IMG/VR virus record: IMGVR_UViG_3300042922_000725
Span: 28,584 to 92,583 of that record
DNA: 64,000 bases
Direction: 5' to 3' (one strand)
DNA from: a virus
A program made the translations under genes and the position numbers. The notes under the pieces are model-generated. The model saw only the letters and a list, made by a program, of their open reading frames with translations, was not told the origin of the DNA and did no database searches. Below, one piece after another: positions 22,868-63,670 of this stretch; position 1 is the stretch's first letter, and each line of letters starts with the position of its first letter.

Positions 22868-22869
22868 TT

Positions 22870-23328: not shown

Positions 23329-23353
23329 GGAAGTTATAATGTAACTTCCTTTT
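23327..23353 (+). terminator. Hairpin between the chaperone region and the tape measure gene
   Basis: AAGGAAGTTA (23327-23336) pairs perfectly with TAACTTCCTT (23342-23351) around TAATG and continues into TTTT. It should lower read-through into the tape measure gene or be antiterminated late. Confidence 0.75.
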
Positions 23354-23380
23354 AATATTGTTTAAAGGGAGTGAATTATA

Positions 23381-26300
23381 ATGAAAGGGATAGGATTACG
23401 ATTTTCTAATATAGAAGAATTAAAGAAACAGTTTGATAATCTTCTTAATGATTTAAAATCAAAGGCTGATAAAAATCCAATATCAATAAATTTTGATGAC
23501 TTAACAAAAAGATTAGTAGATGTTGAAAATAAAGTTAATGAATCTACTAAAAGAATAGGGAAAATGACAGCTAAATCAGTTGAAAATGCTTTAACTGGTG
23601 TTAATTATAAAGATTTTCAATCAAAATTAAATGAAGTTGTAAATGGACTAAATAAAAGTGGAAATCAAGTTTCTGATATATTTACAACGATAGATGCAAA
23701 AACAGAAGCTATAACAGGAGCAACTGTAAAATATACAGATAGTTTAGGTAAAACAATAACTGAAGTATATAAATTAAAAACTGCATGGAAAAACATGAAA
23801 GATGATGAAGGTAATTTTGTTTTAGATAATAAGGGTAACAAAGTAAAACAATTAAATATGGAATTAAAACCTTCTACTATTTCTTATGATAATAATATTG
23901 CAAAACAACAACAAGATAATTACAAGAAGTTAAATGATTTATTAAATAGTACATATAATAATAAAAAGAAAATTGCTCAATTAGATGAAAAAAGTCAAAG
24001 TGGAGAATATGCTAACCAGTTACGTTCACAGATTTCTGATAATGAAAGAAAATATAATGAAATATATAATTCTGTAATAAAAATAGGGGACGAAGAAGAA
24101 ACTTTAGCCATCAATGCAAAACAAACAAATGATTTATTAGAGAAAAGAAAAAAAATAGAACAAGATATATCTTTATTAATAACTAAGCAAAACGATGCGA
24201 CCTTAAGAAAAACATCTACAACAACTAGTGGACAAAGAAATTTAGGAGAAGAAGTAAAGTTAGGAATTCCAATAAATTTTGAAGCCTCAAGAGCGGATTT
24301 GAATGCATACTCAAAGGCTGTCGCCGGAAGTGGAGCAGAATGGACTAGAGTTACTCCAAAAATTGATGCTGCTGGAAATAAAATAAAAGAAGTTAATGTA
24401 AGGGTTAAAGAAGGTTCTGATAAATGGCGTATGTACCAAATGACCTTAGATGAATCAACAGGAAAACTTTATAAGGTTGACAGGGGTTTGTCCGATTTAA
24501 ATAATCGACAATTAGGATTTATAGAGTCGACAAAAATTGCTATAGCACGTATAGCTGAATGGGGCATTTCAACAATGGCTGTATATGGAACTATAAGAAA
24601 GATAAGAGAAGGCGTAGAATTTATTAATTCTTTAAATAAAGCTCAAACGAACATTCAAATGGTAGGCGGCTATTCTCGAAAAGAGGTTCAAGGTTTAACA
24701 AGCGATTATTCGAAATTAGCAGACCAATTATACACAACCACAGATGCTATAATGGCAAGTTCTGAGGAGTTTTTAAGGGCAGGTAATTCTATAGAAGAAA
24801 CAAACTCATTATTGCAAGCCACAGCTATTGGAGGAGCAATTTCAGGACAAGAATCAAGTGCTATGGCAGAACAATTAATAGCCATTTCTAACGGTTTTAA
24901 AATGGCTACTGGGGATGCAAAACAAATGATGAGTGTTATAGACACACTGTCAATTCTTGACAATTCCTCGGCGACTTCCATGAAAGAGATATCTGAAGCA
25001 ATTATGAGAACGGCTTCATCTGCACAAATGGCAGGAGTTTCGTTTAAAGATTTGAGCGCATATATTGCCACAGTTTCTTCTGTTACAAGAAAAAGTGCCT
25101 CTAGCATAGGAGAATCATACAAAAGTATATTTTCTAGGTATCAGGACGTTAAAGGTGGAAAAAATTTTGACTCAGACGAAGAAGATATTTCAAATGTTGA
25201 AAGGGATTTTCGTAAATATGCTGATATATCTATAAGAAGCGCAAAAGGGGAGTTCAAAGATTTTGGAGTTGTACTTGATGAACTTAGTGGTAAGTGGTCT
25301 ACTCTTAGTACTGTTGCTAAAAGTGCAGTCACTAAAGCGCTTGCTGGAACAAGACAAAGAGAGAATCTACTGGTGCTGCTAAATGAGATGGGGCAAGTTA
25401 GAACATTACAAGAAAAAATAGAAGAAGGTGCAGGTTCAGCAAAGGCTAAGTTTGATGAAGCTTATGGAAAGTCTACAGAAGCTCAAATAAATAAATTAAC
25501 AAATAGCACACAAAGATTATACATGTCTATGTTTAATAGCGATATGATAAACAGTGCAATTGGAGGATTAAATACGTTTGTTGAATATTTACAAACTATT
25601 TCAGAAAGTTCAATTGAAACAAAAATAGGAATTGTGGCATTAACTGGAGTGATAGTAGCTATGGGTATTGCAATAAAGAAAAATGGAATAGATTCTTTAA
25701 ACACAAGTTTAGCTAGTTTGATTCCTAATATTACTAAATTTATATTTGGAGGTCAAGCTTTAACCACAATTTTGGGTGGTTTAAAAACCGCTTTTTCACT
25801 TTTGTTATCTCCAGTTGGATTGGTTGGAGTGGCTATAGGCGTTGTGACTGTCGCTATAGCAGGACATATAAAACACCAAAAACAGTTAAAGGAACAAACA
25901 GAATCATTATCTTCTAGCTATAAAAACTTAACTAATGCTATGAAAGAAAATAATGCGGAAACAATGAAATCAGAGCTTGACAATATTAAAAAGCAACAAA
26001 GTGAAATGAATAAATTAGTTTCTGAAAGAGCTGAATTAGAAAAGAAAATAGCAAGCGCAACTCCGGGTGGTGGTAATTATTCTGGTGCTGCTTATGCAAT
26101 GAAAGCTAATCAAGGATTATATAATCAACTTAATGCTGTAAATGACAAGATTGCAGAACAACAAAAAGTTATGGATTCAGCAGGAATTAGTGCAAAAGAA
26201 TTAGCTAAAGCAGAAATGATGGTTTCTAATAATGAAATAGCAAATCAAATCAAAAAGACAACAGAAGAAGAGTATAATAGAAAACAATCTATTTCAAATC

Positions 26301-48221: not shown

Positions 48222-48235
48222 CGAACGAACGTTCT
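48222..48235 (+). promoter_or_regulatory. LexA/DinR-like SOS box upstream of the integrase gene
   Basis: CGAACGAACGTTCT fits the Gram-positive LexA consensus CGAACRNRYGTTCG in 13 of 14 positions. It lies in the divergent spacer between the small regulator and the recombinase gene, so host SOS induction may activate either. Confidence 0.5.
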
Positions 48236-48354: not shown

Positions 48355-49401
48355 ATGGCTAAAATAGTAAGAGTTAAATATTTTACAGAAGAAAAGAAAA
48401 AATTAATCAGTGAATCAAATAAAAAACTTTATGATAAATACCTTAAATCAAATATAATAAAAAACAGAGAAGTTGAAGATACAACTTATGGTGTTTATAC
48501 TAATAATATGACACACTTCATGATATTTTTGGCTGAAAATTATGATAATGTTGGGCTTTACGATGAAGATTTTATAAAAAATGCAGTAGATATAATGGAA
48601 GATTACATATCTTTTTGTCAAGATACTTTGCAGAATAATAAAAAAACTATCAACAACAAAATAGCTGCGGCATCGTCGTTTTATGCATGGTCAATGAAAA
48701 GAAAATATATAGGATTTCATCCCTTTGATAAGAGACTTGACAGAATGAAAGGAGCAAAAGACGAAAAAATTATTAATTCTTATTTTTTAACAGAAGAAGA
48801 AATAAATAAAATAAAAGAAGGATTGGAAGATTCTAAGAGTTTCGATATTCAAGATAAAATATTGTTTTATTTGGCTATCGATAGTGCTAATAGAATAGGA
48901 GCATTGAGTAAGCTGACCCTTTCTAGCATGGATATAGATGAAATGGTTTTTAAAGACATAAGGGAAAAACGTGGAAAACGTGTTGAAGTGGTATTTGAAG
49001 AAAAAACTCGTGAGTTAATTGAAGATTGGCTTTATCAAAGAAAAGATAATTATGATAAAATGGAAGTTGACTCTTTATTTATAGCAAATTATAAAACATG
49101 GATACCTATGGGAAAAAGTTCTTTACAAGAAAGAATCAGAAAAATAGGAATGATTATTGGATTAGAAGATTTTCATGCTCACTGCACAAGAAAATCGGCT
49201 ATAAATTTAATAGTTGAAAAGACAGGAGATATCTCGTTAGGTGCCGAAATTGCGAATCATGAAAGTGTTGAGACAACTCGTCAAAGTTATGTTAAACCAA
49301 GGTCAAAATCTCAAACTAGAAATAAGATAAAAGAGTTAATAAAAGAGAAAGACTTGGCAAAGAAACAAATAGAAGATAATGAAAAACAAGAGGAGTTATA
49401 A
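48355..49401 (+). CDS. Tyrosine recombinase/integrase
   Basis: 348 residues. An N-terminal SAM-like core-binding domain (about 45-130) is followed by the catalytic domain with R180 (SANRIGALSKLTL), H276 and R279 (HAHCTRKSAINL), H302 (IANHESVETTRQ) and Y312 (SYVK). AAGGAGG precedes the ATG. It could integrate the phage or resolve dimers of a plasmid prophage. No att core was identified by eye. Confidence 0.85.
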   Translation: MAKIVRVKYFTEEKKKLISESNKKLYDKYLKSNIIKNREVEDTTYGVYTNNMTHFMIFLAENYDNVGLYDEDFIKNAVDIMEDYISFCQDTLQNNKKTINNKIAAASSFYAWSMKRKYIGFHPFDKRLDRMKGAKDEKIINSYFLTEEEINKIKEGLEDSKSFDIQDKILFYLAIDSANRIGALSKLTLSSMDIDEMVFKDIREKRGKRVEVVFEEKTRELIEDWLYQRKDNYDKMEVDSLFIANYKTWIPMGKSSLQERIRKIGMIIGLEDFHAHCTRKSAINLIVEKTGDISLGAEIANHESVETTRQSYVKPRSKSQTRNKIKELIKEKDLAKKQIEDNEKQEEL

Positions 49402-49410
49402 TCCTAACAA

Positions 49411-49587
49411 ATGCAATCCCTAATCGGTAAGAAACTTGTTACTACCGATAAACGAATTATTGAAATAACAAAAGTAATAGATGGAGTGGCTTATTTTTTA
49501 GTCTACCATCAAGATAACATAACTGATAAAAAGATAGGCTGCTGTAATGTATTAAAAATTATAAACGCCTTGAATGTAATAAAATAA
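49411..49587 (+). CDS. Small protein downstream of the integrase
   Basis: 58 residues (MQSLIGKKLVTTDKRIIEIT...NALNVIK) starting 10 bases after the integrase stop. Its only AGGAG is about 15 bases upstream, inside the integrase end, so coupling to integrase translation is likely. The pattern of alternating strands and a Cys-Cys pair looks protein-like. No family recognised. Confidence 0.45.
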   Translation: MQSLIGKKLVTTDKRIIEITKVIDGVAYFLVYHQDNITDKKIGCCNVLKIINALNVIK

Positions 49588-49638
49588 AAATGGGAAGTGA
49601 TGATTAATAATTTAAGAGAAAGGCAGGTAAATAATAAT

Positions 49639-50193
49639 ATGGAAGAAAATTTGATGCATCAAATGAAATCTGAAATGGACGTTATGCAAAACAAGATAAA
49701 ATTTCTTGAATTGAAACTTGAGTATATGGAGAAATCAGGATTAAGGAGAGAAGAATATACTGAGTTAGTTAAGGAGATAGCAACTTTAAAAGCTTCTTTA
49801 AAAGAGATTAAGAATGATAGAGAAGAAGATAAATCGATGATTTATGCTCTTAGTGGAAAAATAGAAGACGTTGAAAAATTAATAAGACAATTTATAGCTA
49901 ATACTGCAAAAATAGAAATATCTCAACAAGATGTTGTTAAACAGGTTGATACAATGGATAAACGAGTTAATAATAAAATAGACTCATTAGAAGCAAAGAT
50001 TGAAAAATTAACTCAATTAATGACATTTAACTGGGTTGAAATGGTTAAAAATTTTATTAACTATAATTTAGTAACAAAATTGTTTTCATATTTCAGTTTT
50101 GTAAGTATTATATTTTTAATTATAGAAATGGTTTTATATTACTTAGGTATACCTATTGATATAAAAGCAATAACAAAAGCATTTAAAGGATAA
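49639..50193 (+). CDS. Coiled-coil protein with C-terminal membrane segment
   Basis: 184 residues from the ATG at 49639. Residues 1-135 are a long Lys/Glu coiled coil (KFLELKLEYMEKSGLRREEY, DKRVNNKIDSLEAKIEKL). Residues 150-172 form one membrane segment (FSYFSFVSIIFLIIEMVLYYLG). It precedes the agr-like genes on the same strand, 27 bases before the receptor-like gene. XhlA-like hemolysin/holin accessory proteins are one comparison, but a role with the agr cassette is also possible. Confidence 0.5.
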   Translation: MEENLMHQMKSEMDVMQNKIKFLELKLEYMEKSGLRREEYTELVKEIATLKASLKEIKNDREEDKSMIYALSGKIEDVEKLIRQFIANTAKIEISQQDVVKQVDTMDKRVNNKIDSLEAKIEKLTQLMTFNWVEMVKNFINYNLVTKLFSYFSFVSIIFLIIEMVLYYLGIPIDIKAITKAFKG

Positions 50194-50220
50194 CAAAATA
50201 AAAAGAATGGAGAAATAAAT

Positions 50221-50676
50221 ATGCAATTTGCACTAGCATTTTTATACTTAATACTTGAGACAATATGGATAGTCTATATAACGTTAGTCTTTCTTAAGAA
50301 AGATAATATAAAATTAATAAATTTAAAAGTTCTAATTCCTATAACAGGATTTTCTTTATTAGTTAAATATCACACATCCTCATCTATGCTTATACAAATA
50401 GTTTTAGCAATATTGTTATATTCTACAATAATATGGATTCAAAATTATAAAATTAATCCATTAAAGGTTTTTGGTTTTACAATATTGTCCTTTCTAATTA
50501 TGTTTGGTATAGAGTTATGTGTAACAAAAATAATATTTGACTTATTACATATTAATGCTTTTTTAATAAAAAATAATGTTGTTTTACATTTTATTATTAA
50601 TTTACCAATTAAGAGTATAATGTATACAATATTATATATAAATTACAATAAAAGGAGGATTGCAAACTATGTTTAG
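50221..50676 (+). CDS. Polytopic membrane protein resembling an AgrC sensor domain without kinase
   Basis: 151 residues with five or six membrane segments (AFLYLILETIWIVYITLVFL; LIQIVLAILLYSTIIWI; VFGFTILSFLIMFGIELCV; and others), the size and layout of the peptide-sensing N-terminus of AgrC-type GHKL kinases. It ends at ILYINYNKRRIANYV, so the kinase part is missing. Its end overlaps the start of agrD by eight bases. It could be a decoy receptor, an immunity factor or an unrelated membrane protein; the AgrC link is by layout and context. Confidence 0.45.
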   Translation: MQFALAFLYLILETIWIVYITLVFLKKDNIKLINLKVLIPITGFSLLVKYHTSSSMLIQIVLAILLYSTIIWIQNYKINPLKVFGFTILSFLIMFGIELCVTKIIFDLLHINAFLIKNNVVLHFIINLPIKSIMYTILYINYNKRRIANYV

Positions 50677-50776
50677 AAAATTATTATCTTTAACAGCATT
50701 CGTATTCGTTGGTGTTGGAACAATGGTTGGAATGTGTTGGTTTGTGGGTTATCAAGAAGAAGCTCCAAAGCTTTAA
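50669..50776 (+). CDS. agrD: AgrD-type cyclic-peptide pheromone precursor
   Basis: 35 residues. A hydrophobic/basic amphipathic leader (MFRKLLSLTAFVFVGVGTMV) is followed by the core GMCWFVG and a charged tail YQEEAPKL. A Cys followed by aromatic residues and then a Glu/Pro/Lys tail is the clostridial AgrD pattern; the probable thiolactone ring is CWFVG. AGGAGG lies ten bases before the ATG, and the start overlaps the upstream gene. AgrB is encoded 18 bases downstream. The exact ring boundary is inferred. Confidence 0.8.
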   Translation: MFRKLLSLTAFVFVGVGTMVGMCWFVGYQEEAPKL

Positions 50777-50794
50777 TAGGATAAAACAAAACTA

Positions 50795-51382
50795 ATGATT
50801 ATAAAAATTGCAGAACATTATGCTAGATTACTTGTTGAAAAATCTAGCGAAACAGAAAGAGAGTATCAGATATATAGATACTCTCTTATATTTTATATCA
50901 GTACAATATTCCAACTAACATTGATATTTTCTATGACCTATTTACTAGGCTTATTTTTATATGCACTACCTATTGTTTTAATGTACATTCCTCTAAGAGC
51001 TATTGCCGGAGGATATCATCATAAATATTTAGGTAATTGCACCTTATTTTCCATGATTGAAATAATATTGTTCTCATATTTAGCTAAATCACAGTATTTA
51101 AACAATGCAATCTCGATAGCTTTTATTTGTATTTTTATGATAGTAACTATTATAACATCTATGCCAAAAGACAATATTTATTTAAAACCAACAAATAGAA
51201 ATAAAAAAATTGTAAAGAAGTTATATATCATAGTTTTAATTTTAATGACTGTATTAGTGATAGTATTTCCTAATTTACAATCATTTTTATTAGCTGCTAT
51301 TACATATTCGTGTTTACAATGTAGTAACCCTTATTATGTTATTAATATATGGGTAGATAAAAAAATAAAAATTGAATTATAA
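50795..51382 (+). CDS. agrB: AgrB-type pheromone-processing membrane protease
   Basis: 195 residues with about five membrane segments. The catalytic pair H75 and C82 lie in RAIAGGYHHKYLGNCTLF with the spacing of seven seen in AgrB. It would cut the AgrD tail and help form the thiolactone. It directly follows agrD. No full AgrC kinase or AgrA regulator lies within the window, so the signal is presumably sensed by host or by proteins encoded elsewhere on the phage. Confidence 0.85.
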   Translation: MIIKIAEHYARLLVEKSSETEREYQIYRYSLIFYISTIFQLTLIFSMTYLLGLFLYALPIVLMYIPLRAIAGGYHHKYLGNCTLFSMIEIILFSYLAKSQYLNNAISIAFICIFMIVTIITSMPKDNIYLKPTNRNKKIVKKLYIIVLILMTVLVIVFPNLQSFLLAAITYSCLQCSNPYYVINIWVDKKIKIEL

Positions 51383-51534
51383 AGAATAAAGGAGCAGTCA
51401 TTCCATAGCACTGATGCATCTAGATACCATAAAAATCATGCCCTTATATATACAATAACATATTATTTAAAAACTGTCAAATACTTTCACAAAGAAAATT
51501 AAAAATTATTTGAAAATTTGTTAAGGAGTATAAT

Positions 51535-51693
51535 ATGTTAATAGAATTAGAAAAGATAATTGATAAATTACAAAATCACGTAGATTCTACAGACCTTAAT
51601 TGGTTTAATGACAGTACATTAATAGAATCTAAAATAGAAAAAGATACATATAGAAAAATAATAAGAGAATTAAAAGAACTTAAAGTTCAGTGA
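51535..51693 (+). CDS. Small helical protein after agrB
   Basis: 52 residues (MLIELEKIIDKLQNHVDSTD...KELKVQ). AAGGAG precedes the ATG; a terminator follows its stop. It is charged and helical with no motif. The 152-base gap from agrB (51383-51534) holds no clear gene. Confidence 0.5.
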   Translation: MLIELEKIIDKLQNHVDSTDLNWFNDSTLIESKIEKDTYRKIIRELKELKVQ

Positions 51694-51704
51694 ATAAAGT
51701 TATA

Positions 51705-51727
51705 GGCGCATTTCGGTGTGCCTTTTT
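51705..51727 (+). terminator. Terminator ending the agr-side transcripts
   Basis: GGCGCA (51705-51710) pairs with TGTGCC (51717-51722, one G-U) around TTTCGG, then TTTTT. Confidence 0.8.
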
Positions 51728-52576: not shown

Positions 52577-53620
52577 TTACAAGGCACTCTTTAAAATGCA
52601 ATCCAATCTCCTTCCCTTTACGAAACTTTTAATTCCATATTGTACGTTCATAAAACTATTTATTACAACTGTTAAGGTAATTGCTGAAACCTCAATTGCA
52701 AAAATGTGAATAAGTATATTACTTGTTATGAATATAATAGCTCCGGCAATTCCTAATTTTAAGCTATTCGTTCTTATCATTTCATGGATTTTATCTTTTG
52801 TTTCTTTTCCATGTTTTAAATTATCAATATATAATTCATTAACTTGTAAGTTTCTGTTTAGTTCATCAACATCAATACTGTTTCTACTTAATAACCATTG
52901 AATTAAAGGATTGATGATAAACATTAAGCCACTATTTATTAATAAATTATCAGCTACTAAATTACTTAATAAGCTGCTAATAACTAAACTTGTTGTATAT
53001 GTATTTCTTCCCGAAAAACTAAGCTTATCAACTTTGCCTTTATAATGAATATCAATATCTTCTGTACTTTTTAAAATTCTGTAATTATATGTAAATAACA
53101 ATCCTATAGAAGCAAATGTTAACAAGGTAGACACTAAGCTTCCTGTAGATAATCCTATAATAATTTTTGGAATACTAAATATAAAATTAAGTAATATTGA
53201 AATTGAAATTCCGTCGATAGTTTTAAGTTTATCTAGTTTGTCAATTATAAAAGTAGTTGCTGTAGATTTTAATATGTTGAGCGATAAGGAAATAAAATAA
53301 TTAATACCATCATACCGACTTGAAACTATTAATCCTGTTATTATGCCAGTTGCAATTGATAAAGTTTTTGTATATTTTGATATTTGGATTTTATTAATGT
53401 CTGGTTTTATAGATTTAATAGTTTCTATAATACTAGAGCTGATTAAATAAGGAGTATATGATGGTATATTTTGATTTAGGCTTACTGGGAATTTATTTAT
53501 ATTATTTATTTTTAATTTATCTAAGAGTGTAATTAAAGTTTGAACTGTAGTACATTTTAGTGTTAACGTTAGTATATTGTTTATTTTATCAGTTGCTATA
53601 TTAATAGAATTTTTATTCAT
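52577..53620 (-). CDS. Large integral membrane protein of unknown function
   Basis: 347 residues with several hydrophobic segments (SIATGIITGLIVSSRYDGIN, SIPKIIIGLSTGSLVSTLL, KLGIAGAIIFITSNILIHIF and others) separated by Lys-rich loops. AGGAGTG precedes the ATG. It is the last gene of the ThyX operon. No known family was recognised; superinfection exclusion or membrane remodelling are untested possibilities. Confidence 0.55.
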   Translation of the reverse strand: MNKNSINIATDKINNILTLTLKCTTVQTLITLLDKLKINNINKFPVSLNQNIPSYTPYLISSSIIETIKSIKPDINKIQISKYTKTLSIATGIITGLIVSSRYDGINYFISLSLNILKSTATTFIIDKLDKLKTIDGISISILLNFIFSIPKIIIGLSTGSLVSTLLTFASIGLLFTYNYRILKSTEDIDIHYKGKVDKLSFSGRNTYTTSLVISSLLSNLVADNLLINSGLMFIINPLIQWLLSRNSIDVDELNRNLQVNELYIDNLKHGKETKDKIHEMIRTNSLKLGIAGAIIFITSNILIHIFAIEVSAITLTVVINSFMNVQYGIKSFVKGRRLDCILKSAL

Positions 53621-53641: not shown

Positions 53642-53812
53642 TTATTTTAAAATAAAATATGTAGCCGAATAATACTTTCTCATTCCCTTATCATTAATTA
53701 TCTCAAATTGCAATCCATTATTGCTTTTATATGTATGCTCTATTTTATATCTCTTTTCTTTAGTTAAAAAATATTTAATATCAATTTTACTGGTTATATA
53801 TTGATTACTCAT
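53642..53812 (-). CDS. Small protein overlapping the ThyX gene end
   Basis: 56 residues ([20 protein letters not shown]...[10 protein letters not shown]). Its ATG overlaps the stop of the ThyX gene, indicating translational coupling. It is basic and beta-rich with no motif recognised. Confidence 0.5.
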
Positions 53813-54638
53813 GATTGTTCTTTTCTGTTAATTGTTTTAATGTTGGATATCTTCCACATGACATATTACCTTCTTTACAGTATCCTAATTGTACACATGA
53901 AGCTCCTGCCTTTTTAAATAAGGTGGGGGCTATTTTTTTTACTTCAATCAACATTGCATAGGCTAATTCTTGTATCTCGTCTTGTGCTCTAGAACAGCAA
54001 CGATGATTGAAAAAATTTAATAAGCTTCTAGCATTCATGGTTACGATAATTTTTGTTTCACAAGCGTTAGGGAAAACATATCTTGCATTTTCTATAGCTT
54101 TCTTTTCAAATTTACTATAAAGTTTTTTATTATCACTCTTAATTTCATGTAAAGCTTGATTAATATAATCAATATTTTTAAAATCCCAATAATCTAATTT
54201 TAAATGTTCAGCTATATAATGTTTAATCAAACCTTCAACTAGACTATCATAGTCTCTTTGTGATTGTTTCATATTCTCTATGTATAACTTTCTTAATTCA
54301 GTATATCTATCTATTTCTTTAGGAATAATATATTCAAATTGATTCAATCTGACATATCTTTGACTTTGCTGAGAATAAGATGCTATCCTATGTCTAACTA
54401 GTTGATGTGAAAGGCTTCTACTAACACCTTCTATTCCAAATGTAAATGAAACGTGTTCTAAAGGTGATTCATGCCCAAGAGATATTAACATATTTACAAA
54501 TTTATCAATGTTTTCTTCGGTTAAATCTTCTCCTATTTCGTCAATTGTTGAAGCAGAATAACATAATTTCCCTGCTTGAGCTATTACCTTTTCAGGATTT
54601 GGTGTATGTTCTAATATTTTTACTTCTAATTCTACCAT
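53805..54638 (-). CDS. thyX: FAD-dependent thymidylate synthase ThyX
   Basis: 277 residues. The ThyX signature RHRxxSxxxxSxR is exact at residues 82-94 ([13 protein letters not shown]). The C-terminal part [19 protein letters not shown] with [14 protein letters not shown] is also typical. It makes dTMP from dUMP using folate and FAD, useful for phage replication in a low-GC host. Its promoter and a long leader lie upstream; a 56-residue gene overlaps its stop. Confidence 0.95.
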
Positions 54639-54665
54639 CTAATTTCCTCGCTTTCTAAATTATAT

Positions 54666-54773
54666 TTATCAATATTTAATTGGATATATGGTTACTAAAG
54701 TGAATTGATTGTTTTATGTATAAACCTTAGTAACCACTAATATCATAGTATCATGTTTTGAAATTCATGTCAA
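54666..54773 (-). promoter_or_regulatory. Promoter and structured leader of the ThyX gene
   Basis: On the minus strand: TTGACA (54768-54773), 17 bases, TACTAT (54745-54750). The transcript then forms a hairpin from GGTTACTAAGG and CTTTAGTAACC (54690-54700 with 54725-54735, one mismatch), followed by AAATATTGATAA (54666-54677) before the ribosome site. The 100-base leader may carry translational or attenuation control. Confidence 0.6.
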
Positions 54774-54808
54774 TATAGTAGATTGAATATATTTATATTT
54801 AATTGTAT

Positions 54809-57079
54809 TTATTCGAACTTTACTTCTTTAACGCTATCATTTGTACTTCTCAAGTTCAAAATAAAGTTCCCTTGGTTTCTTACTCTGCTTTTTAGGTATT
54901 CGTATAAACACCTTGTCTCTGAATTTTTCCCAGTAGTGGCAATATCATCAAGTTTAAACTCTTTAATTTTTCCCTTTTCCGTTGTAATTGTAAAGTTAAG
55001 AATTTTACTAGGATTAATTACACAAGCCATTACTTTATTATTTTCAGATTCTCCCAAATTCATTGCTTGGTTTCCTTGACTATTTCTAGATTGCTTGCTT
55101 GATATTTCTTCTACATTGACAAGTACGCCTTTACATTCCTGTGAAATCATAAACACATCTACATCGTTTTTAATGTATTCTATATCTAATAATTTACTTT
55201 CTATAGAGTAACAATTTTGAAGTTTTTTATTTGCAGATATAAAAGATTTAATATCTACTTTGGAGATTTTACCATTTTCATAAACTGATAATATATAACC
55301 CTGTGCTTTTGTTTCATCTTCCAATGATACTAATTTAATTACTTTTTCATTTGGTTCAAGGTCTATTAGATTTGGAAGATATTCTCCTAATACAGAAGGT
55401 TTAGAATCAGAAATATCATAAGCATTAAGTTTATATCTATTGGCTTTATTGGTTATACAATATAGTGTTGATTTATTAGTTGAGTCTATTTCTTGTATGA
55501 TATTATCATTATCTTTTAATTTTTGCTCGTCGGTTCCCTTTCCTCTGAGGGATGTTAATGGGATTTTCTTAATCCAATTTTGTTCTGTGAATATTATTTT
55601 GGTGTTATAATCAGGAACGGTATCAAGTTTTGAAATATCTTCAATATTTTCATCTGTAATTATTTCTGTTTTACGCTCAACACCGTATTTCTCTTTAATA
55701 TTTTCTAGCTGAGATATTATTATATCTTCTATTTTTTGGTCAGAGCTTAAAATTTGTTGAAGTTCCATTATTTGATTTTTAATTTCGTTAACGTTTTTAA
55801 TTTTCTTTAGTATCCAGTCTTCGTTTATATTAATCAGTCTAATTGTTGAAACATATTCAGATTGTGCTTGATTTAAATTAAAGTGATTTGTTAACTTATC
55901 AATAGCTTCTTTTTCTGTTTTAGATGTTCTGATTAATTTTATTGCCATGTCTAAATCTTGATTAATCAACTCTAGCCCTAGAAGTTTGTTTAAATCTTCA
56001 TTTAATTTGTTAATATCATATGTTAATTCACCCTTTATACATGTGGTTCTATGAATCAACCATTTAATATAAATATCTTTTAAAGACATAAGCTTTGGAG
56101 TTTTTCCATCTAAATCTAATACGGTAAAGTTACATGAAAATTTTGATTCATAAGGAGTATACTTTCTTAGTTTTTGTTCAAATTGTTTTAAATCCGTATT
56201 CTTTTTTAAATAGATGTCTAACTGAATACCTTGTCTTCCATTATTGTTGTGAATATGGGTAATTTCTTTAAATAATCCTTTGTCATAGGCAGCTATAAGT
56301 TTTGTTTCAATATCTTCAATATATGCTTCATACGGAACTTCTATAATTGAAACTTTGCTTTCTTTTTCATCGTAAATATATTTACCTAATAAAGTAAAAC
56401 TTCCTCGACCTGTCTTATAAATAGTATTAAAGGTATTTTTATTATATATTATTCTACCACAAGTTCCTATGAAGTCTGGACATTGCAATATTTCTATAGC
56501 TTTATCTATATCTTTGTTTAATATAAATGATTTTAAGCTATTACATGTTTCTATTAAATTATGAGGTGGTATTTTAGACGCTTCCCCAACGGCTATACTT
56601 TGTGATATATTAGTTAGTATATTAGGGATTATTGATGGAAGTAAAATAGGTTCATCTTCTGTATTATCAAAATTTCTTTTAGTAGGAACTATGTTTTTAT
56701 TAATTCCTTCTAACATACTTTCAGAATAAGGACTTAACTTACATTCAACATATCTAGGACTCGCTCCATCATCTTCTTTCTTTCTCTTATCTCCATAGCT
56801 ACCTTTTGGTGTTAGATAAAAATAATTAAGTCCGTTGTTAGCCATGTTTTTCATAGCAGAGAATAGTGGAATATCTCCAAATATATAAAAGACCATTGCA
56901 AATGCTCCTGCTCTATGGAGCTTTATAAATTGTTTGTCACTGTTTATTTTATTAATGTGCAACGCCCAAATGACTTTTCTTTGAACTGGAAGTAAGCCAT
57001 CGATACTAGGTAAATTATTGATAAGTACGGGGCTACAAAATTCAGTAAATTCTTCTTTTAATACTTCAACTATGTCCAT
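54809..57079 (-). CDS. Type II DNA topoisomerase subunit A (GyrA/ParC-like)
   Basis: 756 residues. The N-terminal domain contains SIDGLLPVQRKVIWAL and the breakage-reunion motif GASPRYVECKL with R109 and catalytic Y110. The coiled-coil arm (about 340-450) follows, then a reduced C-terminal beta-pinwheel region (about 500-756). It starts 11 bases after the B-subunit gene, so they are coexpressed. Together they would relax or supercoil phage DNA. Sequence is diverged from bacterial GyrA. Confidence 0.9.
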   Translation of the reverse strand: MDIVEVLKEEFTEFCSPVLINNLPSIDGLLPVQRKVIWALHINKINSDKQFIKLHRAGAFAMVFYIFGDIPLFSAMKNMANNGLNYFYLTPKGSYGDKRKKEDDGASPRYVECKLSPYSESMLEGINKNIVPTKRNFDNTEDEPILLPSIIPNILTNISQSIAVGEASKIPPHNLIETCNSLKSFILNKDIDKAIEILQCPDFIGTCGRIIYNKNTFNTIYKTGRGSFTLLGKYIYDEKESKVSIIEVPYEAYIEDIETKLIAAYDKGLFKEITHIHNNNGRQGIQLDIYLKKNTDLKQFEQKLRKYTPYESKFSCNFTVLDLDGKTPKLMSLKDIYIKWLIHRTTCIKGELTYDINKLNEDLNKLLGLELINQDLDMAIKLIRTSKTEKEAIDKLTNHFNLNQAQSEYVSTIRLININEDWILKKIKNVNEIKNQIMELQQILSSDQKIEDIIISQLENIKEKYGVERKTEIITDENIEDISKLDTVPDYNTKIIFTEQNWIKKIPLTSLRGKGTDEQKLKDNDNIIQEIDSTNKSTLYCITNKANRYKLNAYDISDSKPSVLGEYLPNLIDLEPNEKVIKLVSLEDETKAQGYILSVYENGKISKVDIKSFISANKKLQNCYSIESKLLDIEYIKNDVDVFMISQECKGVLVNVEEISSKQSRNSQGNQAMNLGESENNKVMACVINPSKILNFTITTEKGKIKEFKLDDIATTGKNSETRCLYEYLKSRVRNQGNFILNLRSTNDSVKEVKFE

Positions 57080-57090
57080 AAAATCTCCTT

Positions 57091-59130
57091 TTACTCAATG
57101 TTATTTAAGTCAATTTTAGTTATATTTTCTCTTATAAATTCTTTTCTTGGTAAGGTGTCTGTATCCATAAACATTTCAAAATGTTTATTTATCAAAGCTT
57201 CGTTCAATTGGTCATATTCTACAGGAATAAAAGTTTTTTTTCTTGCCTCATCAGATAAAACATATAACCAAAAATCCTCTTTGTTAAATTCTCCTAAACC
57301 TTTTTTTATTCCGATAGTGTATTTTATATTTTTAGAATTTAATTCTTGAATTAAGTTTTCTTTTTCAATATCATTATATGCAAATAAGCTTTCTTCTGTT
57401 TTTGTTAATATAAATTCATATCTAGGAGATGTAATTAAATACACTCTGTTTTGTTTAAGTAATGTTGGCATAAATTTATACATAAAGGTTAATATTGACA
57501 GATTTATTGCCCTACCAAAGGCATCTCGGTCACAAAGTATTCCAAGTGAACCATAATTTAAATTATCTATATTAAATGTTTGGATATCTTTATATTTTTT
57601 TCTTTCTTCATAAGGTATTTCTATTCCACAACCCAATGCATTAATAATTCTTAAAGCAGGTTCATTGTCTAATACATCAGATACTTTGGCTTTATAACTA
57701 TTAATAAACCTACCTCTTAATCCACAACAGCCCATTATTCTAGGGTCAATTGAGTTTTCTATTGTAGAATTAGCAGAAATACCTTCATCTACAATGAATA
57801 TGCGTTCCTCAACTTTTGATTTTTTAAAATCACAATGTTTAACGCCCGGTATTTTACTGAATGAGGATTTTGTTTCACCTTGTAATTTTTTCTTTATATC
57901 TAATTTAGATTGTTCAGCTTTTTCATTTGCTCTTTTATTAATAAGGCACTGTCCTATAATTTTATCTGCAACAAGTTTGTTTTCTGTAAAATATACTATT
58001 AGTTTATCTTTTAAAGAGCTTGTTGTAAAGTCTTTTATAAATTTATTATTTATGCTTAATTTAGTTTGATTAGCATAGCTCGTCATAGTTGAAAAACTAG
58101 AAATCATACAACTAAAACTGTCTTGTATATCCGTAAACTTTATTTTACTTTCGTTTTTGTTATATAAGTTGTTATTTTTTATATATTCATGAATTGCATT
58201 AGTAAAAGCACTTTCAATAGCTTCAGCAGTTGAACCACCCTGCAATAATTCAGAACTATTGTGAAAATATTGTAATGTATTAACAGTATTGTTAAAAACA
58301 AAAGCTATTTCGTAACTAAATTTATATTCTGGTTTATCACTTCTATCTTTACCTATTCCACTATCACTGAAAGTTATAATATCTGTTATATTTTCATCAG
58401 TAGTTATTTCTTGCAGATAGTCTACAATTCCATTTTCATAAAAGTGGGTGTATATAATATCTGCACTTTCGTCATAAACATCTATTTTTAAACCTTTGTT
58501 GACCACAGTTTGTTTTTTTAACTTATCATTTATCCAATCTATGGGTATATTGATATTTGTAAAAACTTCTAAGTCTGGCTTATAATAAATTTTTGTTCCC
58601 TGCTCATTATCAATATTTGACTCCGTTTTTAAAACTCTTTCTCCTTGTTCTTTGCTAAATAAATTATCATCATCATCACAAATGAATTCTTCTGTATTTT
58701 TGTCTACTGGTCTGCCTTTTTTGAATTTAGTAGTGTATTTTTTGCCATCTCTGTATGATATAACATTCATGTAGTCTGATGCATATTGTGAACTGGTAAG
58801 ACCTAATCCATTAAGACCTATTGAAGTGGAGTCTGCGTCATAATTGTCAGAAGCATACAATACTTTTAAAGCCAAGTCCCAATTGTAAGCATTTTCTTTT
58901 TCGTTCCACTCCATAGGTAGTCCATCTGCAAAATCTAATACAGAATAATTTAAATCTTTATGTTTGATGATTTTAATATAGTTCCCATATCCTTTTCTAT
59001 ATCTATCTATAGAATTACTCGTAATTTCAAACAAGGTATGTTGGCACCCTTTTATGTCATCTGAACCCATCATTACAGAAACTCTTTTTCTAATTCTTTC
59101 AGAACCTTTTAATCTTGTTAAATCTGCCAA
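57091..59130 (-). CDS. Type II DNA topoisomerase subunit B (GyrB/ParE-like)
   Basis: 679 residues. The GHKL ATPase shows FEITSNSIDRYRKGYG and VLDFADGLPMEW, with GLNGLGLTSSQYASDY as lid. The Toprim domain has IFIVDEGISANSTIENS, the spur GLRGRFINSYKAK and LCDRDAFGRAI, where bacterial GyrB has DADVDG: the third Asp is Phe. It is coupled to the A subunit and follows a GIY-YIG gene on the same transcript. It supplies ATP-driven strand passage. Confidence 0.88.
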   Translation of the reverse strand: MADLTRLKGSERIRKRVSVMMGSDDIKGCQHTLFEITSNSIDRYRKGYGNYIKIIKHKDLNYSVLDFADGLPMEWNEKENAYNWDLALKVLYASDNYDADSTSIGLNGLGLTSSQYASDYMNVISYRDGKKYTTKFKKGRPVDKNTEEFICDDDDNLFSKEQGERVLKTESNIDNEQGTKIYYKPDLEVFTNINIPIDWINDKLKKQTVVNKGLKIDVYDESADIIYTHFYENGIVDYLQEITTDENITDIITFSDSGIGKDRSDKPEYKFSYEIAFVFNNTVNTLQYFHNSSELLQGGSTAEAIESAFTNAIHEYIKNNNLYNKNESKIKFTDIQDSFSCMISSFSTMTSYANQTKLSINNKFIKDFTTSSLKDKLIVYFTENKLVADKIIGQCLINKRANEKAEQSKLDIKKKLQGETKSSFSKIPGVKHCDFKKSKVEERIFIVDEGISANSTIENSIDPRIMGCCGLRGRFINSYKAKVSDVLDNEPALRIINALGCGIEIPYEERKKYKDIQTFNIDNLNYGSLGILCDRDAFGRAINLSILTFMYKFMPTLLKQNRVYLITSPRYEFILTKTEESLFAYNDIEKENLIQELNSKNIKYTIGIKKGLGEFNKEDFWLYVLSDEARKKTFIPVEYDQLNEALINKHFEMFMDTDTLPRKEFIRENITKIDLNNIE

Positions 59131-59142
59131 AATATCACTTCC

Positions 59143-60252
59143 TTAATTGTTTATATTGTTATGTGTAGATATTATTTCTACATTTTTTAAACAAAATAAT
59201 GTTTGATTAGGCTTTAATTTTATCTTACAACCTTTTTTATTTTTAATACTATTACTTTCACTTAAACTTTCTATATCATTTATGTAATTTATAAATTTTA
59301 GCCATTCTTTACAAACAGAATATTTAACTTCTTTTGATTCCGTTATTTTTTCATCGTAGCAACGTCTTAACATATCTCTCCATTTGTCATATAAATAATG
59401 ACTTTGTGGTTTGTTTATTTCTTTTCCCACAATTCCTACATCACAAACATAAGGAGCATCCCAATCTTTAATATGCCCATTGGATATTTCTTTAGTTTCA
59501 GCAACGGTTTCAAATCCTGTATTTATAAACTTAACTTTTCTTTTACCATTCTTCAGATTTTCTATAATCTCAAATTTATATCCTTTGGAATTACTATATA
59601 TTTCTCCCACTAGAAATTTATTTATTTTAACTTCTTTTTCTTTATAATTAAAATCAGTAATGCCTTCTTTAGACCACTTAAAACCATAGAATATTAAGTT
59701 TTTCTTTGTAGCTTGGCGAATTCTAAAATTAACTTGATTGAAATTAAAGTTTTCTATATTTCTTTTACTATCAAGTAGATAATTCGTAGCTTCATTATAG
59801 GAATTAAATTCAATTATATTATCTTCGCTTATAGCTAGAATAGGAATAGCATTTTGAGGGATACTACCTTTTTTAAATCTGGTTTCTTTTCCTACTTTTA
59901 TAACGTGTTCAGGCTCCCCGTTTTCACTTTCTGAAGCAATGTTATTATAACCCATTTCTACACTATTATATTGTAATATATATTCTGTTTCTATTTTAAA
60001 TAAGTCTTTTAAAGGAACTATATCTAATACTTGAAATGTAAAATCACTTATACCATACTTCAGCATATCAAACAATAAACTTCCTTCTTCATTATTGGGT
60101 TGTTGTAAAGAAAAATAACCTCTGTGATAAGCATTTATATAATCATGCCATCTTTCAGTTACAACTCTTCTTGTGGCTCCTATATAATTTTTATTTGAGG
60201 TTATACAATGTATTAGGTATATATAACCGTATTCTTTTTTACGTTTAAGCAA
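59143..60252 (-). CDS. GIY-YIG homing endonuclease
   Basis: 369 residues. The GIY-YIG nuclease motif is at the N-terminus (YGYIYLIHCITSNKNYIGAT), with FKIETEYILQYNS behind it. Residues about 145-215 resemble a NUMOD-type DNA-binding segment (FNSYNEATNYLLDS). Residues 290-345 carry YDKWRDMLRRCYDEK and VCKEWLKFINYIND, as in phage HNH/AP2-linked mobile proteins. It lies 12 bases upstream of the B subunit gene and shares its promoter. It is likely a mobile gene lodged in the topoisomerase operon. Confidence 0.8.
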   Translation of the reverse strand: MLKRKKEYGYIYLIHCITSNKNYIGATRRVVTERWHDYINAYHRGYFSLQQPNNEEGSLLFDMLKYGISDFTFQVLDIVPLKDLFKIETEYILQYNSVEMGYNNIASESENGEPEHVIKVGKETRFKKGSIPQNAIPILAISEDNIIEFNSYNEATNYLLDSKRNIENFNFNQVNFRIRQATKKNLIFYGFKWSKEGITDFNYKEKEVKINKFLVGEIYSNSKGYKFEIIENLKNGKRKVKFINTGFETVAETKEISNGHIKDWDAPYVCDVGIVGKEINKPQSHYLYDKWRDMLRRCYDEKITESKEVKYSVCKEWLKFINYINDIESLSESNSIKNKKGCKIKLKPNQTLFCLKNVEIISTHNNINN

Positions 60253-60284
60253 TAACTTTCTCCTTTCTTAATTAAATTAAAATA

Positions 60285-60337
60285 TTTTGTGGAAATATAT
60301 CCAATTCCATTATATAATATATCTCCACAAAAATCAA
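60285..60337 (-). promoter_or_regulatory. Promoter of the topoisomerase operon with long operator dyad
   Basis: On the minus strand: TTGATT (60332-60337), 17 bases, TATAAT (60309-60314). A 16-bp inverted repeat with one mismatch (60285-60300 with 60317-60332) brackets the -10, with TTTTGTGGA as its outer arm. It probably binds a repressor and controls the homing endonuclease and both topoisomerase genes. The rest of the spacer to 60464 has only a weak CTCAAG/CTTGAG hairpin. Confidence 0.65.
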
Positions 60338-60464
60338 TACTTTATTAATATTAAATTGAATAAAATAGTCATTTTATGCACTTTTATGAGTCTTTAAACT
60401 CGCTCAAGCTCCATTATGCTTTGATTTACTTGAGTTTTCATATTAACAAATTGTAAACAAATAT

Positions 60465-60761
60465 TTAATTTTGATTATTTTTAATACTTTTTATAATAAT
60501 ATCTAAAATTTCAGATTGTTCTGTATGTAAATCTATTTGATGATTTCTATAATCCAAAAAATCATCAGAAATCTTTTTTATTTCTTTTTTAAGATTGTCA
60601 ATTTGTTGTTGCTGAAAAGTTGTAACCGGTAAAATTAGTGAGAACAAGGACGTCTCCATATTATTTTTAAATATATTTGCAATCATTATAATAAGAAATA
60701 TAATTGTAAAGATAAAGTTTATATGTTTATTAATGAATTTTAATATTTTTATTTCAATCAA
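60465..60761 (-). CDS. Small membrane protein
   Basis: 98 residues, TTG start. One membrane segment at residues 15-32 (NFIFTIIFLIIMIANIF), then a helical soluble part rich in Gln, Asn and Asp. AAAGGATT precedes the start. Last gene of the ligase-side operon. Holin-like or signalling roles cannot be told apart. Confidence 0.5.
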   Translation of the reverse strand: MIEIKILKFINKHINFIFTIIFLIIMIANIFKNNMETSLFSLILPVTTFQQQQIDNLKKEIKKISDDFLDYRNHQIDLHTEQSEILDIIIKSIKNNQN

Positions 60762-60772
60762 ATCCTTTCATA

Positions 60773-60916
60773 TTATTTACTTTGTTTATTTTTACTTAAT
60801 TTAATTTTAGTTTCATCAATCACTACTGGATTTCCGCTAACTCTTTGATAATATACTACATTATCAAAATATATTGGTGTATCACCTATGTAACCTACTA
60901 TTTTTTCATTTTCCAT
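60773..60916 (-). CDS. Small protein in the ligase operon
   Basis: 47 residues (MENEKIVGYIGDTPIYFDNV...SKNKQSK). AGGAGG lies seven bases before the ATG, which makes it a convincing gene despite its size. Beta-rich start and basic tail. No family recognised. Confidence 0.6.
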   Translation of the reverse strand: MENEKIVGYIGDTPIYFDNVVYYQRVSGNPVVIDETKIKLSKNKQSK

Positions 60917-60918
60917 AT

Positions 60919-61479
60919 TTAATCCTCCTTATACCATCTTGTTCCATATTTTTCTTGACCAATTCTCATTAGCTCCCAATATTTGTTTTTATAATCATTA
61001 GACTCTCTTTCGAAATATTTTATTCTCCTATTTAACTTATCAATTATATTAGAGTCTTCACTTTTAATTAATTTTTCAGCTTCTCTATATAACGATCTTA
61101 TCATTGAATTTTTTAATACTTGTTCATCTACTCCTAATTCTTGTTTCTTAGCTCTTTTAACACATGTCTGACCACAATAAACGCCTATATGATTTGGAAT
61201 TTCTTCTTTAACTTCTTCATACAACTTTGAAGGCATAACATAATAATTATAATGTCCTAAAAATGTTTTCTTGGCTTTACTATGAAAATCTGATTTAGAT
61301 ACTTTTATCTCATAACAACGCCAAACGCTTTTAGTATCAAAGGTTATAAAATCGCAGCGCTCTTTACCCCACCAGCCAATTGTGACTTCAAAACAACTAA
61401 ATACTCCTTGTTTAGAAGTGGCTTTCCATATTTGTTTTTCTAAGTCAAGAGTTCCTTGAGTTTTAGCTATAATAATCAC
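60919..61479 (-). CDS. MmcB-like DNA repair / nuclease-fold protein, probable non-standard start
   Basis: About 183-187 residues. WGKERCDFITFDTKSVWRCYEIKVSKSDF follows the MmcB/VRR-type nuclease-fold pattern (D, then E-x-K), split here at 20 residues: WGKERCDFITFDTKSVWRCY then EIKVSKSDF. HIGVYCGQTCVKRAKKQEL comes later. The longer frame to 61569 overlaps a separate small gene (61511-61615) in another frame. AGGAGG sits just before in-frame ATT, ATT and ATA codons (61476-61468), and the only normal start there is a GTG overlapping AGGAGG. Start therefore probably ATT or ATA. Confidence 0.6.
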   Translation of the reverse strand: MIIIAKTQGTLDLEKQIWKATSKQGVFSCFEVTIGWWGKERCDFITFDTKSVWRCYEIKVSKSDFHSKAKKTFLGHYNYYVMPSKLYEEVKEEIPNHIGVYCGQTCVKRAKKQELGVDEQVLKNSMIRSLYREAEKLIKSEDSNIIDKLNRRIKYFERESNDYKNKYWELMRIGQEKYGTRWYKED

Positions 61480-61510
61480 CTCCTTATAATTATTTATATT
61501 TATATATGCA

Positions 61511-61615
61511 TTACTTCTTTTTCTTTGGATAATTAACCCTAACATATAACTCAAACATAACCATACCACCCATTACAAAACCAATAAACCAACTAATAAA
61601 TAAATTTTGCCACAT
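61511..61615 (-). CDS. 34-residue membrane protein
   Basis: MWQNLFISWFIGFVMGGMVM continues to YVRVNYPKKKK: one membrane segment and a basic tail. GAAGGG precedes the ATG. It lies between the ligase and MmcB-like genes; its frame excludes the long N-terminal extension of the latter. Confidence 0.55.
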   Translation of the reverse strand: MWQNLFISWFIGFVMGGMVMFELYVRVNYPKKKK

Positions 61616-61643
61616 TTTTATTTTTCCCTTCTTTTTAAAATTG

Positions 61644-61664
61644 AGGGTAAGAATGACTTACCCT
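61644..61664 (-). terminator. Hairpin after the ligase gene
   Basis: AGGGTAAG (61644-61651) pairs perfectly with CTTACCCT (61657-61664) around a 5-nt loop, without a strong T-run on the minus strand. It may limit read-through or protect the mRNA end. Confidence 0.55.
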
Positions 61665-61687
61665 ATATGTTCAGATTATTTAGTAGT

Positions 61688-63670
61688 TTATTCTATTATT
61701 TTTAAGAAATCATCTTCTGTAATTATTGGAATATTTAATTGCTTTGCTTTTTGATTTTTGCTTGAAGGTGAGTTAATATCATTATTTAATAGATAATTAG
61801 TATTTTTACTTACACTCCCTGTTAATTTGCCCCCAAGTTCAAGTATTTTTGCTTCAAGCTCTTTTCTATTTTTAAAATGTATTACATCCCCTGTAACAAC
61901 GAATGTTAAGCCTTGAATAGATGAATTTGAATTAACTTCTTTTGTTTCTTCTTTTTCAATATTTAATATATCAATTAATTGATTAAACATTGATATATTT
62001 TCATCTATAGAAAAGAATTCCTGAACAGACTTGTTTGTTATTTCCCCTATATCCTCAATTTGTGAAAAATTAAAATCATTTTGAATAGCCTTTCTAAATG
62101 TATCTATTGAACCTTTAAAGTGTTTAGATATATCTTTAGCAGTTCCTCGACCAACATTAGAAATACCTATTGAAAATAGCAAATTAGCCAGTTTACAAGT
62201 TTTAGAAGTTTCTACAGATTTTACAATATTTTCATATGATTTTAAACCAAAACCTTCTAATTTAACAATTTGATTTTTATATCTTTCTAAAGAATACAAA
62301 TCAACAATAGTTTTTATAAAACCTTTATCAATAAAAGTTTCAATAATGGATTCAGAGACTCCCATTATATTCATAGCATCTCTTGAGCAATAATGTACAA
62401 TTTGTGCTATTTTCTTTGATGGACAATTATCATTTGTACAATATAAAACTCTTGCGGTTTTTAGTTTTCGTATTTCTGTTTTTTCTTTGCAAATTGGACA
62501 CTCTGTTGGAATTACTTCTGTGTTACTTCTTGTTAAATTATCTAGTATCTTTGGTATTACTTCATTTTGACGTGCCACAGAAACTATATTGTCTTTACCT
62601 AGCTCTAATGCCTCAAAATAATCTATATTGTGTAAGGTTGCTCTTTCTGTCATTGCTCCATCTAAATCTACTGGTTCAAAAACTCCAACAGGATTCACTA
62701 ATCCAGTTCTTGATACTTGCCATTCAGTTTTAATATATTTTGTTTCATACTCTGTATTCTGAAATTTAAAAGCTAGGGCATTCAGGGGATGATGATTAGT
62801 TTCCCCTAATGATTTGCCATAGGCAATATTATTGAATTTAACTACTAAGCCATCTATGGGAATTCCATTATCCTTTGCCAAATCAGTAAGTTGTTGAATA
62901 ATATTTTCTAAACTATTGATATTGTTTTTATTTATCTTAACGTAGGGAATTATATTAAAACCTAAGTTTTTCATAAAAGCAAATTGATCTTCTAAAGTCT
63001 TAAATTCAATCTCCTTTCCATTAGTATCTTTGCATTCTAACAAACCAAAAGATAAAAGTTGAACATTTCTTTTTGCACAAATAGAAGAGTCTAGTTGCCG
63101 AACACTTCCGGCAACAAGATTACGTGAGTTACTATATTTATCATCTTCCGATAAATTCTTATTAATATCTATGAAATCTTCATCGACTATAATAGATTCC
63201 CCCACTGTTTTTAAATATCCTTCAAATCCTATTGTTAAAGGAAATTTTTTGAATGTTTTAACATTATGTGATATATCTTCTCCAATAATTGAATTTCCTC
63301 GGGTACTTCCTTGTTTAAATGTTTTATTTTCATGTATTATTTCAGATGTTAAACCATCTCCTTTAAGCATTAATAAAACTTCTTCATGTCCTATAAAACT
63401 TTTTAATTCAGATATGTCTTTGGTTTTATCTAAGCTTTTTAAAGGAATCGTATGTGTTACTTTTTCTAGTTTTGACTTTACTTCAAATCCAACTCTTTGC
63501 GTTGGAGAGTTACTTAGAATTAAACCAGTTTCATTTTCTAGTTGTTTTAATTCGTCAAACAGCCTATCATAATCAAAATCTGATAAAATAGAAAAATCCG
63601 AGTTGTAATAAGAATCACTCGCCATATTTAATTCTTCAATAAGTATATTTATTCTTTCCAATTTATCCAT
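61688..63670 (-). CDS. ligA: NAD-dependent DNA ligase LigA
   Basis: 660 residues, full length for LigA. The N-terminal Ia domain is followed by the nucleotidyltransferase with catalytic K103 in LKGDG and KQGSTRGNSIIGED. A four-Cys zinc finger lies at CPIC and CTNDNCPSKK, then helix-hairpin-helix repeats (SIGISNVGRGTAKDISKHF). A C-terminal BRCT domain holds GLTFVVTGDV and LEAKILELGGKLTGSVS. It seals nicks during replication using NAD+. Its ATG overlaps the stop of the upstream small gene. Confidence 0.93.
   Translation of the reverse strand: MDKLERINILIEELNMASDSYYNSDFSILSDFDYDRLFDELKQLENETGLILSNSPTQRVGFEVKSKLEKVTHTIPLKSLDKTKDISELKSFIGHEEVLLMLKGDGLTSEIIHENKTFKQGSTRGNSIIGEDISHNVKTFKKFPLTIGFEGYLKTVGESIIVDEDFIDINKNLSEDDKYSNSRNLVAGSVRQLDSSICAKRNVQLLSFGLLECKDTNGKEIEFKTLEDQFAFMKNLGFNIIPYVKINKNNINSLENIIQQLTDLAKDNGIPIDGLVVKFNNIAYGKSLGETNHHPLNALAFKFQNTEYETKYIKTEWQVSRTGLVNPVGVFEPVDLDGAMTERATLHNIDYFEALELGKDNIVSVARQNEVIPKILDNLTRSNTEVIPTECPICKEKTEIRKLKTARVLYCTNDNCPSKKIAQIVHYCSRDAMNIMGVSESIIETFIDKGFIKTIVDLYSLERYKNQIVKLEGFGLKSYENIVKSVETSKTCKLANLLFSIGISNVGRGTAKDISKHFKGSIDTFRKAIQNDFNFSQIEDIGEITNKSVQEFFSIDENISMFNQLIDILNIEKEETKEVNSNSSIQGLTFVVTGDVIHFKNRKELEAKILELGGKLTGSVSKNTNYLLNNDINSPSSKNQKAKQLNIPIITEDDFLKIIE

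Follow-up and report, generated by a model that had tools for sequence, protein, structure and literature searches.

An Agr-type peptide signalling cassette of three genes was located at positions 50221-51382 of the window, by which we mean the whole stretch of 64,000 nucleotides analysed here (positions 28,584 to 92,583 of the virus record IMGVR_UViG_3300042922_000725), and a preliminary description of this DNA had placed the three genes correctly. All are on the plus strand and have open frames. The first (50221-50676) encodes a 151-aa (amino acid) protein with five membrane segments, and its end overlaps by 8 bases the start of the second, agrD (50669-50776), which encodes the 35-aa AgrD precursor MFRKLLSLTAFVFVGVGTMVGMCWFVGYQEEAPKL and scores 24.6 bits against a cut-off of 19 with TIGR04223. 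The ring of the signal peptide is predicted, by position relative to the AgrD family, to be Cys-Trp-Phe-Val-Gly (CWFVG, 50735-50749). The third gene, agrB (50795-51382), encodes a peptidase/cyclase of 195 aa that reaches 82.6 bits against a cut-off of 23 with PF04647, and its catalytic residues H75 (51017-51019) and C82 (51038-51040) align with the His and Cys of all the 13 phage and four bacterial AgrBs compared. Both the AgrB with its catalytic His/Cys and the AgrD precursor are thus real, as had been proposed. Scans of viral and genome contigs with the single AgrB sequence gave no confirmed match.

The 151-aa protein has no match in Pfam, PHROGs or NCBIfam, and single-sequence searches of viral contigs, phages and plasmids with it returned none. 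A total of 348 Bacillota genomes were surveyed for AgrB, of which 140 carry one over the cut-off, and the 30 best loci were read. In these loci agrB is often directly preceded by, and often coupled to, a stand-alone protein with a length of about 155 aa and about five segments (L159, L163, L170, L172, L175, L177, L180, L181, L184 and L186), and no Pfam or NCBIfam model matches this chromosomal family above its cut-off. A profile of the stand-alone family scores the N-terminal halves of AgrC at 58-110 bits and the 151-aa protein at 16.5 bits, compared with 2.3 bits for the best of 200 shuffles. When residues 1-165 of AgrC were added to the profile, the score of the 151-aa protein rose to 20.8 bits, with an E-value of 2.6e-6 in a set of 150 multi-segment open reading frames, while unrelated multi-segment membrane proteins and AgrBs reached 6.2 bits at most, and the other phage cassette proteins ranged from less than 6 to 30.8 bits. 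The profile-profile alignment obtained with hhalign spans residues 1-149 (E 2.7e-5), so that the homology takes in the first five of the AgrC membrane segments. As judged from these alignments, the 151-aa protein is a homologue of the AgrC sensor domain, of full length for its stand-alone family. The earlier characterization of a receptor-like membrane protein that lacks its kinase was upheld in this respect; its normal length within the family and the alignment coverage speak against a truncated receptor, as had also been assumed, and this reading was rejected. The predicted structure of the protein was too poor for use (predicted local distance difference test, pLDDT, 70; predicted template modelling score, pTM, 0.36).

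The preliminary description had seen neither a complete AgrC nor an AgrA in the window. This holds for the whole linear record of 92,583 bases (G000), which is probably a fragment of a phage genome, and in which neither a kinase profile nor PF04397, the LytTR domain that accompanies the receiver in AgrA, found any match.

The window phage shares its terminase with a family of large phages, the nearest of which is about 75% identical and the others 44-78%. Among the other virus records tested, each of the 18 with a length of 119 kb or more carries MrpR (PF22822), the master repressor of SPbeta (PMC10516654), and so does the genome of Paenibacillus xylaniclasticus (G018). The window's record, which is shorter than the MrpR-bearing ones, has none. 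We take the window phage, tentatively, to be large, temperate and a relative of SPbeta. AgrB occurs in 13 of the 21 records of the clade, namely in 12 relatives and in the record of the window; one further record (G037) contains a weak, stop-riddled AgrB-like match.

Kinase-less sensors lie beside AgrB in the relatives that share the window's terminase. The typical order, found in G018, G022, G029, G030, G036, G048, G051, G054 and G055, is a 444-aa gene in the yopQ position, MrpR, a kinase-less sensor of 215-240 aa, AgrB, AgrD and a protein of 120-200 aa, except that AgrB precedes the sensor in G029 and G018. In these nine of the 12 relatives agrB and mrpR are 1.3-2.0 kb apart, and the distance is 6.3 kb in G032 and 8.6 kb in G010. 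The sensor of most relatives has six or seven segments and seems complete in itself. Serine, not cysteine, occupies the ring position in most AgrDs of the Bacilli phages (L129, L133, L134, L135, L136 and L137), suggesting lactones instead of thiolactones.

The last protein of the cassette is a stand-alone LytTR domain, the DNA-binding domain of AgrA without its receiver. It passes the Pfam cut-off in G030, G029, G023 (twice) and the second copy of G022 and stays below it in others, the Pfam E-values in the Bacilli-type phages being 8.2e-7, 9e-5, 1.2e-11, 2.9e-9 and 1.1e-6. A custom profile, built from the LytTR domains of bacterial AgrAs and four of the phage proteins passing Pfam, gave 15 matches, spread over 14 of the 18 phage regions, and those of the phages Davies, Emery, Abouo and Paisley are among the 14; with a profile of bacterial sequences only, the signal was kept in these four phages, G029, G051 and others and was weak in G055, G054 and G018. 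None of the 18 phage regions contains a kinase, compared with 18 of the 30 bacterial loci in the same scan, where AgrC is cut off by the locus end in several of the 12 kinase-negative ones. Among the nearest relatives of the window phage, G010 carries a 282-aa sensor, an AgrD below the TIGR04223 cut-off, a 105-aa protein and AgrB. When the model of the 105-aa protein (pLDDT 80, pTM 0.63) was compared with the PDB, the seven best matches were all Spo0A DNA-binding domains, with template modelling (TM) scores of 0.54-0.64. The Pfam profile Spo0A_C does not match the protein, which by its modelled fold may be Spo0A-like. In G032, another of the nearest relatives, two seven-segment sensors, a DUF5317 protein and a PemK/MazF-like protein surround AgrB and AgrD, and the yopQ-position gene and MrpR come next. 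PemK/MazF-like proteins (PF02452) were observed near agr or MrpR loci (L132:7619-8440 and 3064-3447; L189:6966-7430), and MazF is reported as the arbitrium target in phi3T (PMC10769878).

Full-length AimR, the arbitrium receptor, was detected in five records (G037, G038, G040, G043 and the Metabacillus genome G057), none with an intact AgrB, and no AgrB-bearing record has AimR. Over the 21 records, 13 have AgrB only, five AimR only, three neither and none both (one-sided Fisher 0.0028, or 0.0048 with two near-identical pairs merged, both uncorrected for ancestry). The distance between AimR and MrpR is 4-5 kb in three of the AimR phages. In G038, AimR and AimP are followed by several small genes and a recombinase, after which come the yopQ-position gene and MrpR, both homologous to their counterparts in the Agr phages. 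Agr cassettes and arbitrium therefore tend to share a lysogeny neighbourhood.

We propose, tentatively and at slightly below an even chance, that the cassette supplies the half of an Agr circuit which makes and senses the signal, and that this circuit dispenses with a phosphorelay and tunes lysogeny. AgrB would cut and cyclise AgrD into a small thiolactone peptide with the predicted ring CWFVG, which would be exported and bound by the kinase-less AgrC-type membrane protein. The receptor would then hold or release a stand-alone output protein that binds DNA, which would be LytTR in most relatives and a protein of Spo0A-like fold in G010, with no phosphorylation of a response regulator, and the switch between lysis and lysogeny would be tuned to the number of infected cells nearby. 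Peptide production, receptor binding, direct contact of receptor and regulator and the effect on lysogeny are all steps that we infer. A signal, a maturation enzyme, a kinase-less sensor and, in the relatives, an output domain without receiver are most simply read as a system whose sensor acts directly on the output protein, and control of an output protein by a membrane protein has been shown genetically for the LytTR Regulatory Systems of S. mutans (PMC6193735). The suggestion of the preliminary description that the sensor signals by another route is favoured by the stand-alone LytTR of most relatives, though the route itself was not found in the window, and the window's phage would use it by analogy. 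The suggested arbitration of lysogeny likewise gains a link through the relatives, in which the cassette lies beside MrpR as an alternative to AimR; the LexA-like box first adduced for it exists but is weak evidence. On a broader scale, and with somewhat more reserve, it is possible that a phosphorylation-free Agr system with a cyclic peptide, a kinase-less sensor and an AgrA- or Spo0A-type output steers MrpR and replaces arbitrium in SPbeta relatives.

Several observations weigh against this proposal. No output protein was found for the window phage, and neither LytTR, a Spo0A-like protein (Spo0A_C), MrpR nor AimR (profile NF038310) was detected in the 92,583 bases of the record. The score of 20.8 bits for the 151-aa protein is modest, and the bacterial loci with the five-segment protein usually have an AgrC kinase as well, so that a sensing role of the former is only putative. 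In G023 the cassette and MrpR are 93 kb apart, direct repeats of LytTR type show no excess over shuffles upstream of the cassettes, the Spo0A-like fold in G010 has Foldseek E-values between 0.1 and 0.9 and finds no support from sequence profiles, and the mutual exclusion of AgrB and AimR is not corrected for shared ancestry.

The absence of an output gene from the record would also fit a role in host manipulation, in which the phage peptide acts on the AgrC/AgrA of the host, and so on sporulation or biofilm formation, with the 151-aa protein as a maturation accessory or immunity protein. Host-directed roles were proposed for the phage phiCDHM1 (Hargreaves 2014, PMC3901668), and the frequent coupling of the bacterial five-segment protein to agrB, alongside an AgrC kinase, is what would be expected of an accessory. 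However, a kinase-less sensor with a stand-alone LytTR, kept in 14 of 18 phage regions, would be needless for signalling to the host only, and the relatives mostly keep the set beside MrpR; we consider this explanation rather unlikely. A split AgrC, in which the 151-aa protein would form the N-terminal part and a kinase from another site of the host or phage would be its partner, is improbable. Split AgrCs do exist in three of the bacterial loci (L160, L166 and L167), where a five-segment protein of 157-170 aa is followed by a separate kinase of 285-300 aa, but neither the record nor any phage region examined has a kinase, and the larger sensor of most relatives seems self-contained. That the cassette is non-functional cargo, a decaying fragment of a chromosomal agr locus acquired by the phage, is very improbable: the missing kinase and AgrA and the stop-riddled match in G037 would agree with decay, whereas the three open frames, two of them coupled by overlap, the intact catalytic residues and the presence of AgrB in 13 of 21 related records would not. 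Least probable of all is the decoy of the preliminary description, a membrane protein that only soaks up peptide to shield the lysogen or blunt host quorum sensing, for which no specific evidence emerged beyond the lack of any output domain in the 151-aa protein, and against which stand the phage's own peptide gene and the DNA-binding gene added in the relatives.

The cassette belongs to a run of genes on the plus strand (48355-51693) that begins with a tyrosine recombinase/integrase of 348 aa (48355-49401; PF00589, 1.3e-19). The LexA-like palindrome CGAACGAACGTTCT (48222-48235), upstream of the recombinase gene, has one mismatch to CGAACNNNNGTTCG, and such matches with up to two mismatches show no excess over shuffles across the window. 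The recombinase was rejected as MrpR by profile, and its match to the YopP-position recombinase of G038 is weak and generic (E 7e-4), so that it is not claimed as YopP. Two hypothetical proteins, one of 58 aa (49411-49587) and a coiled-coil protein of 198 aa with one C-terminal membrane segment (49597-50193), precede the cassette, and a hypothetical protein of 52 aa (51535-51693) follows it. The run is closed by a hairpin resembling an intrinsic terminator (51704-51723, plus strand; one found against 0.7 expected), which is likely the end of the transcription unit. No RNA families were detected near the agr locus. Just past the run, a SecY-like protein of 347 aa, a phage-borne translocon homologue, is encoded on the minus strand (52577-53620; PF00344, 36.9 bits, over the cut-off), followed at 53805-63670 by genes for a ThyX-like protein, type II topoisomerase A/B-like proteins and an NAD-dependent DNA ligase, all on the minus strand. 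Outside the window, the record encodes a Tubulin/FtsZ-type, TubZ-like GTPase (L002:1509-2603, minus strand; PF00091, 1.4e-15), a MerR-type regulator (L002:3387-4199, plus strand) and a Rep_3 initiator (L002:4686-5876, plus strand; 1.9e-22), from which the phage probably persists as a plasmid. Its terminase (L003:4558-7482, record 22557-25481; L004) exceeds that of most relatives by about 345 aa, probably owing to an intein.

Arbitrium serves as the model of how phages communicate by peptides. The cassette of the related phages, which lack an arbitrium gene, suggests a second way of virus communication. If the proposal is true, this would be a second, cyclic-peptide system in phages, with two-component receptor signalling freed of phosphotransfer, and group decisions of phages would become testable beyond arbitrium, for which named phages carrying the cassette exist (Davies, Abouo and Paisley). 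The phage cassette may also explain the role of the stand-alone AgrC-sensor-like proteins in bacterial agr loci.

Kinase-less agr sets of phages were mentioned in 2014, when AgrB, a putative AgrD and membrane proteins without a HATPase domain were noted in one passage for the Brevibacillus phages Davies, Emery and Abouo (Hargreaves 2014, PMC3901668). The window resembles them in its AgrB, AgrD and membrane protein without HATPase_c; the cassettes of Davies and Abouo adjoin an integrase and regulators, and in the present analysis the Paenibacillus phages Harrison and Paisley are grouped with them. Unlike the window, with its five-segment sensor, its order sensor-AgrD-AgrB and no LytTR found, the Davies-type cassettes have the order sensor-AgrB-AgrD, a LytTR-like gene and a sensor whose length is 219-223 aa and which has at least six segments. 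In PHROGs (phrog_15081, phrog_10353 and phrog_15604) the LytTR-like protein of Davies is labelled a 'peptidase', AgrB 'unknown function' and the sensor a 'membrane protein'. A 2025 review (PMC11945551) states in one sentence that SPbeta-like phages have agr homologues, and the two references cited there are, by their titles, on other subjects. The open-access papers searched gave no mention of the LytTR partner, the MrpR neighbourhood or the AimR exclusion, a weak negative as most subscription papers fall outside them.

The agr3 locus of the C. difficile phage phiCDHM1 shares with the window a phage-borne AgrD and AgrB and the lack of AgrA, but its AgrC carries a HATPase domain and lacks a recognised receptor domain (PMC3901668), the reverse of the window. 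The LytTR Regulatory Systems (HdrRM, BrsRM; PMC6193735) resemble the relatives in combining a membrane protein with a LytTR protein that has neither receiver nor kinase, an arrangement not found in the window; they differ in having no signal peptide genes and in placing the regulator gene upstream of the membrane protein, and PMC6193735 mentions neither phage nor AgrB. Compared with canonical Agr (AgrBDCA), the window has AgrB, AgrD and the sensor-domain homology, without the histidine kinase and the AgrA receiver. Arbitrium (AimR-AimP of SPbeta phages) and the Agr phages both have a peptide signal encoded by the phage close to the MrpR lysogeny module, but arbitrium employs the cytoplasmic AimR with an imported linear hexapeptide, whereas the present cassette is predicted to pair a membrane sensor with a cyclic peptide.
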